Below are positions 59,903 through 64,000 of a DNA stretch of 64,000 bases, piece after piece. Position 1 is the first letter of the stretch. Each line of letters starts with the position of its first letter. The notes beneath the pieces were generated by a model. That model searched no databases and was not told where the DNA came from. It worked only from the letters and a program-made list of their open reading frames with translations. The position numbers and the translations under genes are program-made. The stretch lies in contig JACJNY010000064.1 in NCBI GenBank assembly GCA_014695295.1, forward strand, positions 1 through 64,000. Reading direction: 5' to 3'. This stretch comes from Microcoleus sp. FACHB-61. Its GTDB lineage: Bacteria; Cyanobacteriota; Cyanobacteriia; Cyanobacteriales; Microcoleaceae.

Positions 59903-60868
59903 ATGCCTACTTATACTGGAATTTCTAGCGAAGCATTTCAGCATCCCCTCGATCGCCAAGCTGAGGAAGCGCTGCGCAGCGTACCTGGATTTGACTTAAT
60001 TGCCAGCAAATTTGTAGAATTTGTCTACGAACGACCGCAATTCGTTTACCTAATGGGAAATAGCATTCAAGTCGGGCCGCGCCAATATGCCAGCATTTAT
60101 CATATATTTCGGGAGTGCTTGCAGGATTTAGATGTTTTTCCAGAACCGGGTTTGTTTGTTTCTCAGAATCCCTCGGTTAACAGCTATGCCCTGGGAAAAA
60201 ACCAGCCTTATGTAGTATTAAACACTGGTCTTTTAGACTTGTTGGAAGAGGCAGAAATTCGGGTAGTATTGGCTCACGAGTTGGGACACATTAAATGCGG
60301 TCATCCAACTTTAAATCAAATGGCGACCTGGGCAATGAGCGTGGCATCGACAATTGGCGAGATGACTTTCGGGCTGGGAAATATGGTAGGCAGCGGTTTA
60401 ATTTACGCTTTTTACGAGTGGCGCCGCAAGGCTGAATTATCGGCAGACCGGGCGGCTTTGTTGGTAACGGATGACTTGAACAGCGTGATGAAGACGATGA
60501 TGAAACTTGCGGGAGTGAGCAGTAAATATGCTGACCAATGCAGTTTGCAAGAATTTATCCGCCAGTCTGACAACTATCAAGAGCTCGATCGAGACAATCT
60601 CAACCAAGTGTATAAGTTTTTACTTTACAACGGCGGGCAAGGCGTGATGCTGAGTCACCCTTTCCCGGTGGAACGCCTGCGGTATTTGCGAGACTGGGCC
60701 AGTTCGGAGGAATACCGCCAAATTAAGCTGGGGAACTACAAGCGGGCTGTAGCTGAGGGTGCGGTTGATGTGAAGTCCCAAACGCCTAACAGCGAGACGG
60801 AGGCTTTGCGCCGTCAAATTGAAGAGTTGCAGCGGGAGATCGATCGGCAAAAATCAAAGCGAAACTAA
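59903..60868 (+). CDS. M48-family zinc metalloprotease
   Basis: This 321-residue peptidase has the zinc motif HELGH in LAHELGHIKCGH at about residues 125-136, and the third ligand Glu in ELSADRAALLV at about 177-187. A hydrophobic stretch (MATWAMSVASTIGEM) follows the active site and may associate with membrane. The C-terminus (about 290-318) is a heptad-like coiled coil with EALRRQIEELQREIDRQ. No N-terminal membrane segment is visible, unlike HtpX. It is a single gene divergent from mtnD. Confidence 0.9.
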   Translation: MPTYTGISSEAFQHPLDRQAEEALRSVPGFDLIASKFVEFVYERPQFVYLMGNSIQVGPRQYASIYHIFRECLQDLDVFPEPGLFVSQNPSVNSYALGKNQPYVVLNTGLLDLLEEAEIRVVLAHELGHIKCGHPTLNQMATWAMSVASTIGEMTFGLGNMVGSGLIYAFYEWRRKAELSADRAALLVTDDLNSVMKTMMKLAGVSSKYADQCSLQEFIRQSDNYQELDRDNLNQVYKFLLYNGGQGVMLSHPFPVERLRYLRDWASSEEYRQIKLGNYKRAVAEGAVDVKSQTPNSETEALRRQIEELQREIDRQKSKRN

Positions 60869-60886
60869 GTTTAAATTCCTCTCCCC

Positions 60887-60922
60887 AGGCTCTGCCTGGG
60901 GATGCAGATCCAGGCAGAGCCT
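60887..60922 (+). terminator. Hairpin after M48 gene
   Basis: Perfect 13-bp arms AGGCTCTGCCTGG and CCAGGCAGAGCCT are separated by 10 bases, 18 bases after the stop. A dispersed CCTAGGCTCTGCC-type repeat, also near 43760-43800. Confidence 0.6.
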
Positions 60923-61126
60923 AGGAACCAGCTAAACCAGCTAAATGTTTTGTTGAAGATTTACCGGATTTGAGGGAGGGAGAAACGTAAAAGGAAGGTA
61001 AACCAGTCAGAGACTTACTCGCAACTTGCCTCCAATCTAAAAACTGTCCCCTCCTTTCGGAAATCTGTTTCTGAGGAGGTGTAGTTTAAATCAAGAGAAG
61101 CTTATAAATCAACGGGGCTAAAAAAA

Positions 61127-61552
61127 ATGATTATTGATAAAGCAATGAATACTAACAAGTCAACTTCTAATTTTTTCGGCAATGTCGGAAAAGTGGCGAT
61201 CGCTCTGACTCTTGTGGCCGCCGGCATGGCATTTACAAATCCTGCGAGAGACCAATACCTAACTTATGCTTCCGGCGTACTCGAAAACGAATTGGAAAGC
61301 ACTGTGTGCAAAGATTCTCGCGTGCCGAAAGCTTTGAGCGGCATTACAGATACTTTGATCGGCAGTTGCAAGAATTTGCTGACTTCGCAGCGGGGCACGA
61401 TCGAAAGCTTGCTCGACAATACAACGCAGCGTCAAAATTTAGGTGTTGCCAGTATTTACACAACTGAACTGGGCAAAAAAAGCTATCAAACGATTGGAGC
61501 TTTTGGGAATTTCGTGACGCTGCCACCGAGTTCTGAAAATGCTCAAAACTAG
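61127..61552 (+). CDS. DUF4359 exported protein
   Basis: This 141-residue protein belongs to DUF4359, with no established function. A hydrophobic N-terminal segment at about residues 20-37 (VGKVAIALTLVAAGMAF) is a signal or anchor. The mature part contains two Cys (TVCKDSR, GSCKNLL), which may form a disulfide, and ends FGNFVTLPPSSENAQN. The last 18 codons and the downstream DNA form the left edge of a tandem duplication, whose second copy preserves FGKFVTLLPSSENAQK at 62467-62523. Confidence 0.8.
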   Translation: MIIDKAMNTNKSTSNFFGNVGKVAIALTLVAAGMAFTNPARDQYLTYASGVLENELESTVCKDSRVPKALSGITDTLIGSCKNLLTSQRGTIESLLDNTTQRQNLGVASIYTTELGKKSYQTIGAFGNFVTLPPSSENAQN

Positions 61553-61575
61553 AGTCAAATTAAGTTCCATTGTAG

Positions 61576-61605
61576 AAACCGGGTTTTGTAGAAAGCCCGG
61601 TTTTT
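61576..61605 (+). terminator. Hairpin with T tract after DUF4359 gene
   Basis: AAACCGGG and CCCGGTTT form a stem followed by TTTTT. It is decayed in the second unit (about 62547-62576). Confidence 0.7.
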
Positions 61606-61777
61606 ACTTAGCTAATTATCTCTAAATAAATCTCAATAAATTCGGATACAGGCAGCAGATATTTTTAATCAAATCGGCTATTAAAAACAAGTTATTAAGT
61701 TTTATTTTTAATAAAACTTAATTGTGCCACTTAATATTAACATGAACACTAAAGTTTGATGTTTAACAAATAAGCAG

Positions 61778-62344
61778 ATGGCAATGCAATTAAGTAAGGG
61801 TGAGAGATTTAATATCTCTAAAGAAGCGCCTGGTTTAAAAAAAATGGCGATCGCCCTCGGTTGGCAGGTGACAGAGGCAGGACAAAGCTACGAGATAGAT
61901 GTCTCTGCGTTTATGCTAGGTGCTGACGGCAAAATACCTAACGATAAATATTTTATCTTTTACAATAATCTGCAATCCTGTGACAGTTCGGTACTGCAAA
62001 CGATTCCTGACAAAAATAACCGAAGTCAAGAGAATAAGACTATTTACGGCGTTATCTTAGAAAGAGTTAATCCTGAAATTGAGGAAATAACTTTTGTTGT
62101 GACTATTCACGAAGCAGATAAATTTAATGCAAATTTTAGCAATATCAAAAATGCTTTTATCAAAATTACAAATTTGGATACAAAAAGCGAGCTTGTTCGG
62201 TATGAATTAAAAGAAAATTTTTCGCGAGAGACTGCTGTAGAATTTGGTCGTTTGTATAGAAAGAATGGAGAGTGGAGATTTCAGGCGGTAGGAGCAGGAT
62301 ATCAGGCAGGATTGCAAACTTTTGTTGACAAGTATTGCAGCTAA
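61778..62344 (+). CDS. TerD-domain protein, truncated copy
   Basis: This 188-residue copy contains one TerD-type domain (about residues 1-188): LSKGERFNISKEAPGLKKMAIALGWQVTE, IDVSAFMLGADGKIPNDKYFIFYNN and GEWRFQAVGAGYQAG. TerD domains bind Ca2+ in tellurite-resistance and stress systems; here the usual DLDAS(A) motif reads EIDVSAF, so binding is uncertain. Compared with the downstream copy it stops at the TAA at 62342-62344 where the other reads GGA, so it lacks the linker, membrane helix and helical tail. It may be a soluble product or a decaying copy. Confidence 0.9.
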   Translation: MAMQLSKGERFNISKEAPGLKKMAIALGWQVTEAGQSYEIDVSAFMLGADGKIPNDKYFIFYNNLQSCDSSVLQTIPDKNNRSQENKTIYGVILERVNPEIEEITFVVTIHEADKFNANFSNIKNAFIKITNLDTKSELVRYELKENFSRETAVEFGRLYRKNGEWRFQAVGAGYQAGLQTFVDKYCS

Positions 62345-62466
62345 AATAGTAATAATATTTCTCCAATTACTAACGATTTGGCAGCGGTCACAACAGCAGA
62401 TGACTTGCAGTTGCCGGCTTGGGAGTTGGAGGTGGATTCAGAACCGGAAGCAGAACAGTCTCGTCT

Positions 62467-62523
62467 GGAGCTTTTGGTAAATTTGTTACCTTGTTACCTA
62501 GTTCTGAAAATGCTCAAAAGTAG
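62467..62523 (+). pseudogene. DUF4359 C-terminal fragment from duplication
   Basis: Eighteen codons read GAFGKFVTLLPSSENAQK then stop, matching the end of the DUF4359 protein (GAFGNFVTLPPSSENAQN). The fragment has no start codon. It marks the novel junction where the TerD linker of unit 1 meets the DUF4359 tail of unit 2. Confidence 0.9.
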
Positions 62524-63436
62524 GATTAAATTAAGTTCAATTGTAGAAACCGGTTTGGGAGAAAGCCAGGTTTTTAATTACGTAATTGTACTTAAGTAAA
62601 TCTCAATAAATTCAGATACAGGCAGCACATATTTTTAATCAAGCCCGCTATTAAAAGCAAAATATTAAGTTTTATTGAATATCGAAAATTATCCGGGGAC
62701 TTAATATTAGCATGAACACTATAAAGTTTGATGTTTAACAAATAAGCAGATGGCAATGCAATTAAGTAAGGGTGAGAGATTTAATCTTTCTAAAGAAGCG
62801 CCCGGTTTGAAAAAAATCGCGATCGCCCTCGGTTGGCAGGTGACAGAGGCAGGACAAAGCTACGAGATAGATGTCTCTGCCTTTATGCTAGGTGCTGACG
62901 GCAAACTACCTAACGATAAATATTTTATTTTTTACAATAATCTGCAATCCTTTGACGGTTCGGTACTGCAATCGATTCCTGAAAAAAACAACCGAGGTCA
63001 AGAGAATAAGACTATTTACGGCATTATTTTAGAGAAAATTAATCCGGAAATTGAGGAAATAACTTTTGCGGTCACTATTCACGAATCCGATAAAATTAAT
63101 GCAAATTTTAGGAATATCAGAAAGAGTTTTATCAAAATTCGCAATTTGGATACGGGAAGCGAACTTGTTCGGTATGAATTAAAAGAGAATTTTTCGCGAG
63201 AGACTGGTGTAGAATTTGGTCGTTTGTATAAAAAGAATGGAGAGTGGAGATTTCAGGCGGTAGGAGAAGGATATGAGGCAGGATTGCAGAGTTTTGTTGA
63301 CAAGTATTACAGCGGAAATAGCAATAAGATTTCTCCAATTACTAACGAGTTGGCAGCGGTCACAACAGCAGATGACTTGCAGTTGCCGGCTTGGGAGTTG
63401 GAGGTGGATTCAGAACCGGAAGCGGAACAGTCTCGT
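62467..63436 (+). repeat. Tandem duplication, unit 2
   Basis: Second unit, aligned with unit 1 at an offset of 971-972. Homology ends at the CAGTCTCGT shared by both, after which the sequences differ. Confidence 0.92.
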
Positions 63437-64000
63437 CAGACTCCAAGGGTACAGCCATCACGAATTAACAATCAAGTTAATAATTCGCGAAGCCGCAAAA
63501 TACCGCTAGCTATAGCGGCAAGTTTAGGGGTTTTGGTGTTGGGGACAGGTATAGGGATGAGCGCCTTTATGCGATCGGGAAATGAAACGCTGAAGCAAGC
63601 GAAAATACTGGCAGTTGAAACGCAGAATGCAGCGAAAGCAACCGATGTCAATCAGCTCAGAAGTTTCGAGCAACGACTTAAAGAAACGATCGCGAATTTA
63701 GAGAAAATTCCTAACTTCCCCGGCTTTGGCTATCAACAAGCTAGAGCTGATTTACTTAAGCTGCGCCCGAGTTTGGTTCCTGTACAGCAAAACTTACAGG
63801 CGGCAGAAAGTCTAGCAACGGCTCAACAATTGGCGATGGAAGCTGCTGTGGTTGTGCAAAAGCCACCTCATCCGATAGAAGTTTGGCATCAGTCGCAAAG
63901 TAAATGGCAACAGGCGATCGCCGTTTTAGAAGCGCTCGATTCACGTACACCCGTTTATAATCTAGCTCAAAATAAGTTATCTAAATACCGAGCCAATCAC
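62750..64000 (+). CDS. TerD-domain protein with membrane helix, partial
   Basis: The frame runs 417 codons from 62750 to the window end with no stop, so the C-terminus is missing. Residues 1-188 are a TerD domain nearly identical to the upstream copy. An acidic linker (AWELEVDSEPEAEQ, about 214-227) and a basic patch lead to a membrane helix at about residues 249-271 (IPLAIAASLGVLVLGTGIGM). The rest is helical, with Gln/Ala/Leu-rich repeats (QARADLLKLRPSLVPVQQNLQAA) likely outside the membrane or in the periplasm. It seems to be the intact ancestor-like copy. Function unknown; a TerD-linked stress or membrane role is inferred. Confidence 0.88.
   Translation, partial: MAMQLSKGERFNLSKEAPGLKKIAIALGWQVTEAGQSYEIDVSAFMLGADGKLPNDKYFIFYNNLQSFDGSVLQSIPEKNNRGQENKTIYGIILEKINPEIEEITFAVTIHESDKINANFRNIRKSFIKIRNLDTGSELVRYELKENFSRETGVEFGRLYKKNGEWRFQAVGEGYEAGLQSFVDKYYSGNSNKISPITNELAAVTTADDLQLPAWELEVDSEPEAEQSRQTPRVQPSRINNQVNNSRSRKIPLAIAASLGVLVLGTGIGMSAFMRSGNETLKQAKILAVETQNAAKATDVNQLRSFEQRLKETIANLEKIPNFPGFGYQQARADLLKLRPSLVPVQQNLQAAESLATAQQLAMEAAVVVQKPPHPIEVWHQSQSKWQQAIAVLEALDSRTPVYNLAQNKLSKYRANH

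Follow-up and report, generated by a model that had tools for sequence, protein, structure and literature searches.

A tandem pair of TerD genes, one short and one with a predicted membrane anchor, in the genus of Microcoleus sp. FACHB-61

TerD proteins are widespread, and their function is poorly understood. Canonical members carry an acidic GDDE loop, which we take to be calcium-binding. Two publications report that Klebsiella TerD binds calcium (PMC8123226) and that predicted metal sites are conserved (PMC8779313). Among the papers listed on TerD, Ter systems and DUF4359, no title or abstract opening gives an account of the gene pair described here, which lies near the end of a 64,000-nucleotide stretch of Microcoleus sp. 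FACHB-61 DNA (positions 1 to 64,000 of contig JACJNY010000064.1, forward strand; hereafter the window).

The pair consists of a short gene, S, and a long gene, L. Both match the TerD domain (PF02342; structures 2KXT/2KXV and 3IBZ) over its full length, and S aligns to residues 1-184 of 2KXT (E 1.2e-46) and 1-182 of 3IBZ. Where 2KXT has the loop NRTGEGDGDDE, however, S and L have sequences such as NNRSQENKT, and the acidic GDDE loop was absent from 34 of 34 S and L genes and present in this genome's four other TerD genes. Because they lack the acidic loop, S and L probably act without canonical calcium binding at this site. The four GDDE-bearing genes lie on contig C68 (L010:5127-6863 and L011:7410-10242), and two of them are fusions, one of TerD with pentapeptide repeats and one of TerD with vWA (TerF-like).

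The tandem repeat and its two TerD genes

Three collinear direct-repeat blocks with a spacing of 970-972 relate 61495-62049 to 62466-63021 (84%, 79% and 95% identical, from the first block to the last), and the match extends to 62465/63437 when the sequence is read beyond the blocks. A first, sequence-only reading of the window had proposed a tandem repeat of about 972 bp, and this held: with ends read from the direct repeats, the units are 971 bp (61495..62465, + strand) and 972 bp (62466..63437, + strand). That reading had also recognized a duplication junction, which it placed at 62466/62467; the junction stands, but we read it one base to the left, at 62465/62466. The unit takes in the final 58 bp of DUF4359, stop codon included, and reaches into the acidic linker of the TerD gene. 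Copy 1 thus consists of these 58 bp, a spacer, the S gene and a linker relic, and at the junction a direct-repeat block marks a relic, 58 bp long, of the DUF4359 3′ end (62466..62523, + strand). The translated junction, SRLELLVNLLP, is common to the window and relatives G018, G020 and G002, and is found with one change in G015. Because the joined ends have no run of bases in common in the present sequences, the duplication event looks non-homologous.

S (61778..62344, + strand; 188 aa) matches PF02342 with 207.9 bits over 1-187/187 (cut-off 25.3), and its TAA stop (62342-62344) lies opposite a GGA in copy 2, as first read. Over the TerD codons S and L are 91.8% identical in the window, with 95.6% in the first 113 bases and 87.6% in the middle; the unit-against-unit comparison that the sequence-only reading had proposed found the two copies to differ, with dN 0.067 and dS 0.166. 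Behind the S stop lies an untranslated relic of the L linker (62345..62465, + strand; 96.6% identical to it). In none of the 21 genomes that carry S did we find a segment of S above 1.35 on the Kyte-Doolittle scale, and for this reason S is taken as soluble. A PADLOC run on S gave no match.

L (62750..64000, + strand, continuing to contig position 64729; L008:4751-6730) encodes 659 aa and scores 199-203 bits against PF02342 (cut-off 25.3). It comprises TerD (residues 1-186), an acidic linker, a membrane helix, a helical region with no Pfam match, TPR repeats (about 436-540) that fall beyond the window end at 64000, and a basic tail. The predicted membrane helix (residues 251-269; 63500..63556, + strand) is the sole L segment above 1.6 on the Kyte-Doolittle scale, with a maximum of 1.99. 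Over the 12 residues before it, the net charge is +3 in nine of the 13 L proteins; one other has +2, and the three from genomes that have L only have +1. Behind the helix the charge is 0 to +2. By the positive-inside rule these charges favour a topology with TerD inside and TPR outside, weakly so for the three L-only proteins. A structure model of L, built with 13 near sequences, was confident in the TPR part and poor in the TerD part (mean pLDDT 56.9). The expectation of the sequence-only reading that a soluble and a membrane-anchored TerD stand side by side downstream of DUF4359, produced by tandem duplication, is thus borne out.

A search for relatives of the L tail, which required exact peptides and which distant relatives without them escape, returned 131 stretches matching either of two peptide patterns, 11 of which encode a relative, nine of these in the genus. 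The two outside it, from Oscillatoriales SM2_1_8 (34% alike) and Calothrix brevissima (45% over 88 aa), had no TerD match in the stretch examined. Elsewhere in the window's genome, on contig C58, a 544-aa protein (L009:8044-9678) has a hydrophobic segment followed by helical-looking repeats resembling those of L and, by reading, no TerD.

Distribution and surroundings of S and L

We surveyed 59 genomes, namely that of the window, 28 more from its genus and 30 from other genera, using the first 417 residues of L as query, and compared 24 loci, the window's own and 23 from relatives. The 29 genus genomes fell into four states: S and L in 10 (G000, G001, G004, G005, G015, G016, G018, G020, G021, G027), S only in 11 (G002, G006, G007, G008, G010, G012, G013, G014, G019, G023, G028), L only in three (G011, G017, G026) and neither in five (G003, G009, G022, G024, G025). 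These include incomplete drafts (G003 at 74%, G009 at 84%, G014 at 86% and G015 at 87%), and the L gene of G017 starts 298 bases from a contig end, leaving the region upstream unseen.

S has 187-188 aa in the same frame in all 21 carriers, ending in TGA in eight (G001, G005, G007, G008, G013, G014, G016, G019) and in TAA in 13. At the position of this stop, L reads GGA in nine of 13 genes, AAA in G005 and ACA in the three L-only genomes; with GGA in these nine, GGA→TGA→TAA is the shortest path to the stop and the likely one. Calculated by the Nei-Gojobori method as a ratio of means over pairs that are not independent, dN/dS of S was 0.27 over 171 pairs (G007 and G014 left out) and 0.22 over all 210. 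For comparison, the S genes of nine S-only genomes gave 0.29, the TerD domain of L gave 0.28 (45 pairs), and S against L within each of ten genomes gave 0.33. Judged by these sequence comparisons, S is a gene under purifying selection and not debris. The first reading had regarded copy 1 as truncated and had offered dosage as one outcome of the duplication. The genus survey rejects a recent truncation as well as dosage: an S of fixed length, under purifying selection, is present in 21 of 29 genomes, and 11 of these have no L; the two proteins are unlike in sequence and in architecture, and 16 of the 29 genomes lack L.

Behind S, 10 of the 11 S-only genomes show a join to the end of L or to its downstream flank. 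About 80 nt from the 3′ end of the L coding sequence (L nt ~1890-1971) persist in four (G008, G012, G013 and G019), and in G012 they can still be translated in frame into the L C-terminus. Because these relics remain, the sequences indicate that L was deleted in these genomes. The join falls after the L stop in six others (G006, G007, G010, G014, G023, G028), and in G002 the locus breaks off within the DUF4359 relic, beyond which the sequence has no match to the locus. G008, G013 and G019 have a common deletion junction (L nt about 585-589 to 1891). Because G008 and G019 have this one junction and yet are not sisters, alleles may have moved from species to species, which suggests locus exchange between species, or an older polymorphism, behind the common junction. 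A transketolase tree was built for 25 of the 29 genomes, leaving out G007 (split in two) and G013, G023 and G024 (no near-complete match). S+L and S-only genomes interleave on it, and four sister pairs are of unlike state (G016/G008, G027/G010, G005/G019 and G021/G028).

The L-only genomes (loci L051, L052 and L053, from G017, G011 and G026) have TerD domains 68-70% identical to the window's S, with less divergence in the L tail (76-78%) and in DUF4359 (82-83%, two genomes), as though this domain had been swapped or had escaped conversion.

The DUF4359 gene (61127..61552, + strand; 141 aa) scores 82.3 bits against PF14271 (cut-off 27), is the single PF14271 match in the genome, and has a moderately hydrophobic N-terminal segment (Kyte-Doolittle maximum 1.58 at residue 16). 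In 21 of the 29 genus genomes the gene next downstream of it is S or L. G003, G009 and G025 have DUF4359 without S or L, two of these being drafts less than 85% complete; S and DUF4359 lie on different contigs in G007 and G014; and G017, G022 and G024 gave no DUF4359 match. This separable adjacency lends no support to the proposed DUF4359-TerD unit. A search of relatives, also suggested at the outset, found the pairing only within the genus among the matches listed: 14 of the 30 genomes from other genera had listed matches to both families and none had them as neighbours, and the nearest two on one contig (in G035) were ~76 kb apart. Much of the genus preserves the gene order M48 peptidase, DUF4359, TerD, glycosyltransferase, and such conservation alone is weak evidence of joint function. 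The glycosyltransferase gene follows S or L except in G015 and G027, where the contig ends, and G002, which is rearranged behind S. In the window's genome, an AbiL-type pair (L008:8070-10074; C61:66069-68073), consisting of an AAA_21 ATPase that matches AbiLi and an RloB protein that matches AbiLii, directly abuts the glycosyltransferase gene that follows L, at the 5′ end of that gene. Beyond the pair, 85 codons of the 5′ part of that gene recur (L008:10215-10469, 90.6% protein identity), as if the cassette had inserted into the 5′ end.

Between DUF4359 and S lies a hairpin with a 16-pair stem (61572..61607, + strand; -23.7 kcal/mol, z -7.1), which the terminator scan did not score because that scan looks for a run of T after the stem, and this hairpin has its T-run within it. 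A consensus scan of 60800-63000 found three promoter-like sites as compared to 5.0 expected and no terminator-like sites as compared to 2.0. The hairpin is one copy of a dispersed short inverted repeat, GAAACCGGGTTT, with 18 matches (at most one mismatch, both strands) where 0.46 are expected, at about 12 places in the window (e.g. 15079, 17835, 29387, 42727 and 61575). In most genomes S and L are preceded by similar sequence, with a different far part for the S genes of G027, G004 and G010, and because each gene has its own upstream region, the two could be expressed separately.

Age of the pair and exchange between its members

In the ten S+L genomes, mean dS was 0.25 between S and L of the same genome, 0.29 between the S genes of different genomes and 0.28 between their L genes. 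Because divergence within genomes is about that between genomes, the S-L split appears to be about as old as these species, or to have been homogenised. A tree of the TerD domains does not separate S from L (11 of 31 branches are open, and the L gene of G001 falls among S genes); since this tree mixes the two, we infer a single duplication from the stop position, synteny and relics.

If there were no exchange, the L of its own genome should resemble S no more than the L genes of other genomes do. We found within-genome S-L identity to exceed between-genome identity in three overlapping segments from -30 to 180 (e.g. 93.3% versus 90.7%; permutation p=0.0062, 0.0014 and 0.0006). Five of six segments further in gave p values of 0.09-0.70 and the last gave p=0.03. 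Of 339 private S states, 72 were common to the genome's own L, compared to a mean of 35 with another genome's L, the excess lying mainly in G001, G005 and G021. These sequence patterns indicate gene conversion between S and L in part of the genus. The coding sequences of the window pair showed no excess of private common states (2 versus 1.6), and conversion appears clear in this pair only in the untranslated linker relic, which matches seven other rows at 88.9% or less and is without the three-base gap found in four other S relics. Because this relic matches its own L best, the near-identity that suggests youth would be a later copy, at least in the linker relic.

These results bear on how the pair arose. 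A recent duplication in the window's lineage, with copy 1 a truncated by-product headed for dosage or decay, would agree with the high identity of the first 113 gene bases and of the linker relic, with the clean junction, and with the 84 open codons that follow the S stop in the window. We nevertheless consider it highly improbable, as the junction is common to G018, G015, G020 and G002, S is of fixed length in 21 of 29 genomes with dN/dS of about 0.27, and S and L within a genome are on average almost as far apart at synonymous sites as S genes of different genomes. Readthrough of the S stop into a longer protein in the window's clade draws on the same open frame, which runs 62-119 codons in five genomes whose relics have three bases as their sole gap. 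In the other 16 genomes a stop closes the frame after 0-27 codons. The extension runs out in sequence that is non-coding and derived from the junction, and the window's relic is itself a recent copy of L's linker. As 16 of the 21 genomes close the frame so early, we rejected readthrough, to which we give next to no chance.

It is also conceivable, if unlikely, that L genes were truncated repeatedly by nonsense mutations and lost their dead 3′ part, the S+L pairs having arisen separately. S and L do not form two clades and two stop codons are in use, and the S genes of G008, G013 and G019 resemble an L with a stop and an internal deletion, all of which would suit such a history. However, the stop falls at the same codon in nearly all genomes (G007 and G014 are shifted by about one residue in the tails), and a linker relic (NSNN and alike) follows it in many. 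Starred clades moreover join S genes from S-only and S+L genomes, grouping the S of G008 with that of G016, and those of G010 and G023 with those of G027 and G004. On balance we favour an old paralog pair, made up of a conserved soluble TerD (S) and a dispensable membrane-anchored partner (L), as the probable explanation.

A proposed pair of a soluble and a membrane-anchored TerD

Under the old-pair explanation, a tandem duplication of about 971 bp would have taken place, probably no later than in the common ancestor of most members of the Microcoleus-type genus. One copy would have stayed full, as L with TerD, linker, membrane helix and TPR, and the other would have gained a stop right after the TerD fold (GGA→TGA→TAA), becoming the stable 187-188-aa soluble S. 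L would later have been lost in many genomes, leaving relics in four. S may then serve as a constant cytosolic TerD, and L may show a like TerD surface at the membrane, on the cytosolic side, coupled to a TPR scaffold on the opposite side; the two proteins could co-assemble, or they could compete for the same ligand or partner. More speculatively, and in our estimate rather doubtfully, this genus-specific, loop-less TerD subfamily may be a two-state soluble/membrane pair whose surfaces are matched by gene conversion, in which case it would partition a TerD ligand or partner between cytosol and membrane.

S+L, S-only and L-only genomes within one genus constitute a natural comparative set, which separates the role of the bare TerD fold from what membrane anchoring adds. 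The locus also illustrates that an old tandem duplicate under gene conversion can look young in a single genome.

The evolutionary process proposed here is ordinary, and it is the TerD-membrane-TPR architecture that appears unusual. With Ter systems (TerB, TerC, TerD and others) the locus has the TerD component in common; contig C61 has no TerB or TerC match, TerB being found on C2, C7, C67 and C74 and TerC on C15. The TerD fusions of this genome (vWA and pentapeptide) combine, as L does, an N-terminal TerD with a different C-terminal extension. L differs from these fusions in that its extension consists of a membrane helix, a helical region outside Pfam and TPR repeats, joined to a TerD domain without GDDE.
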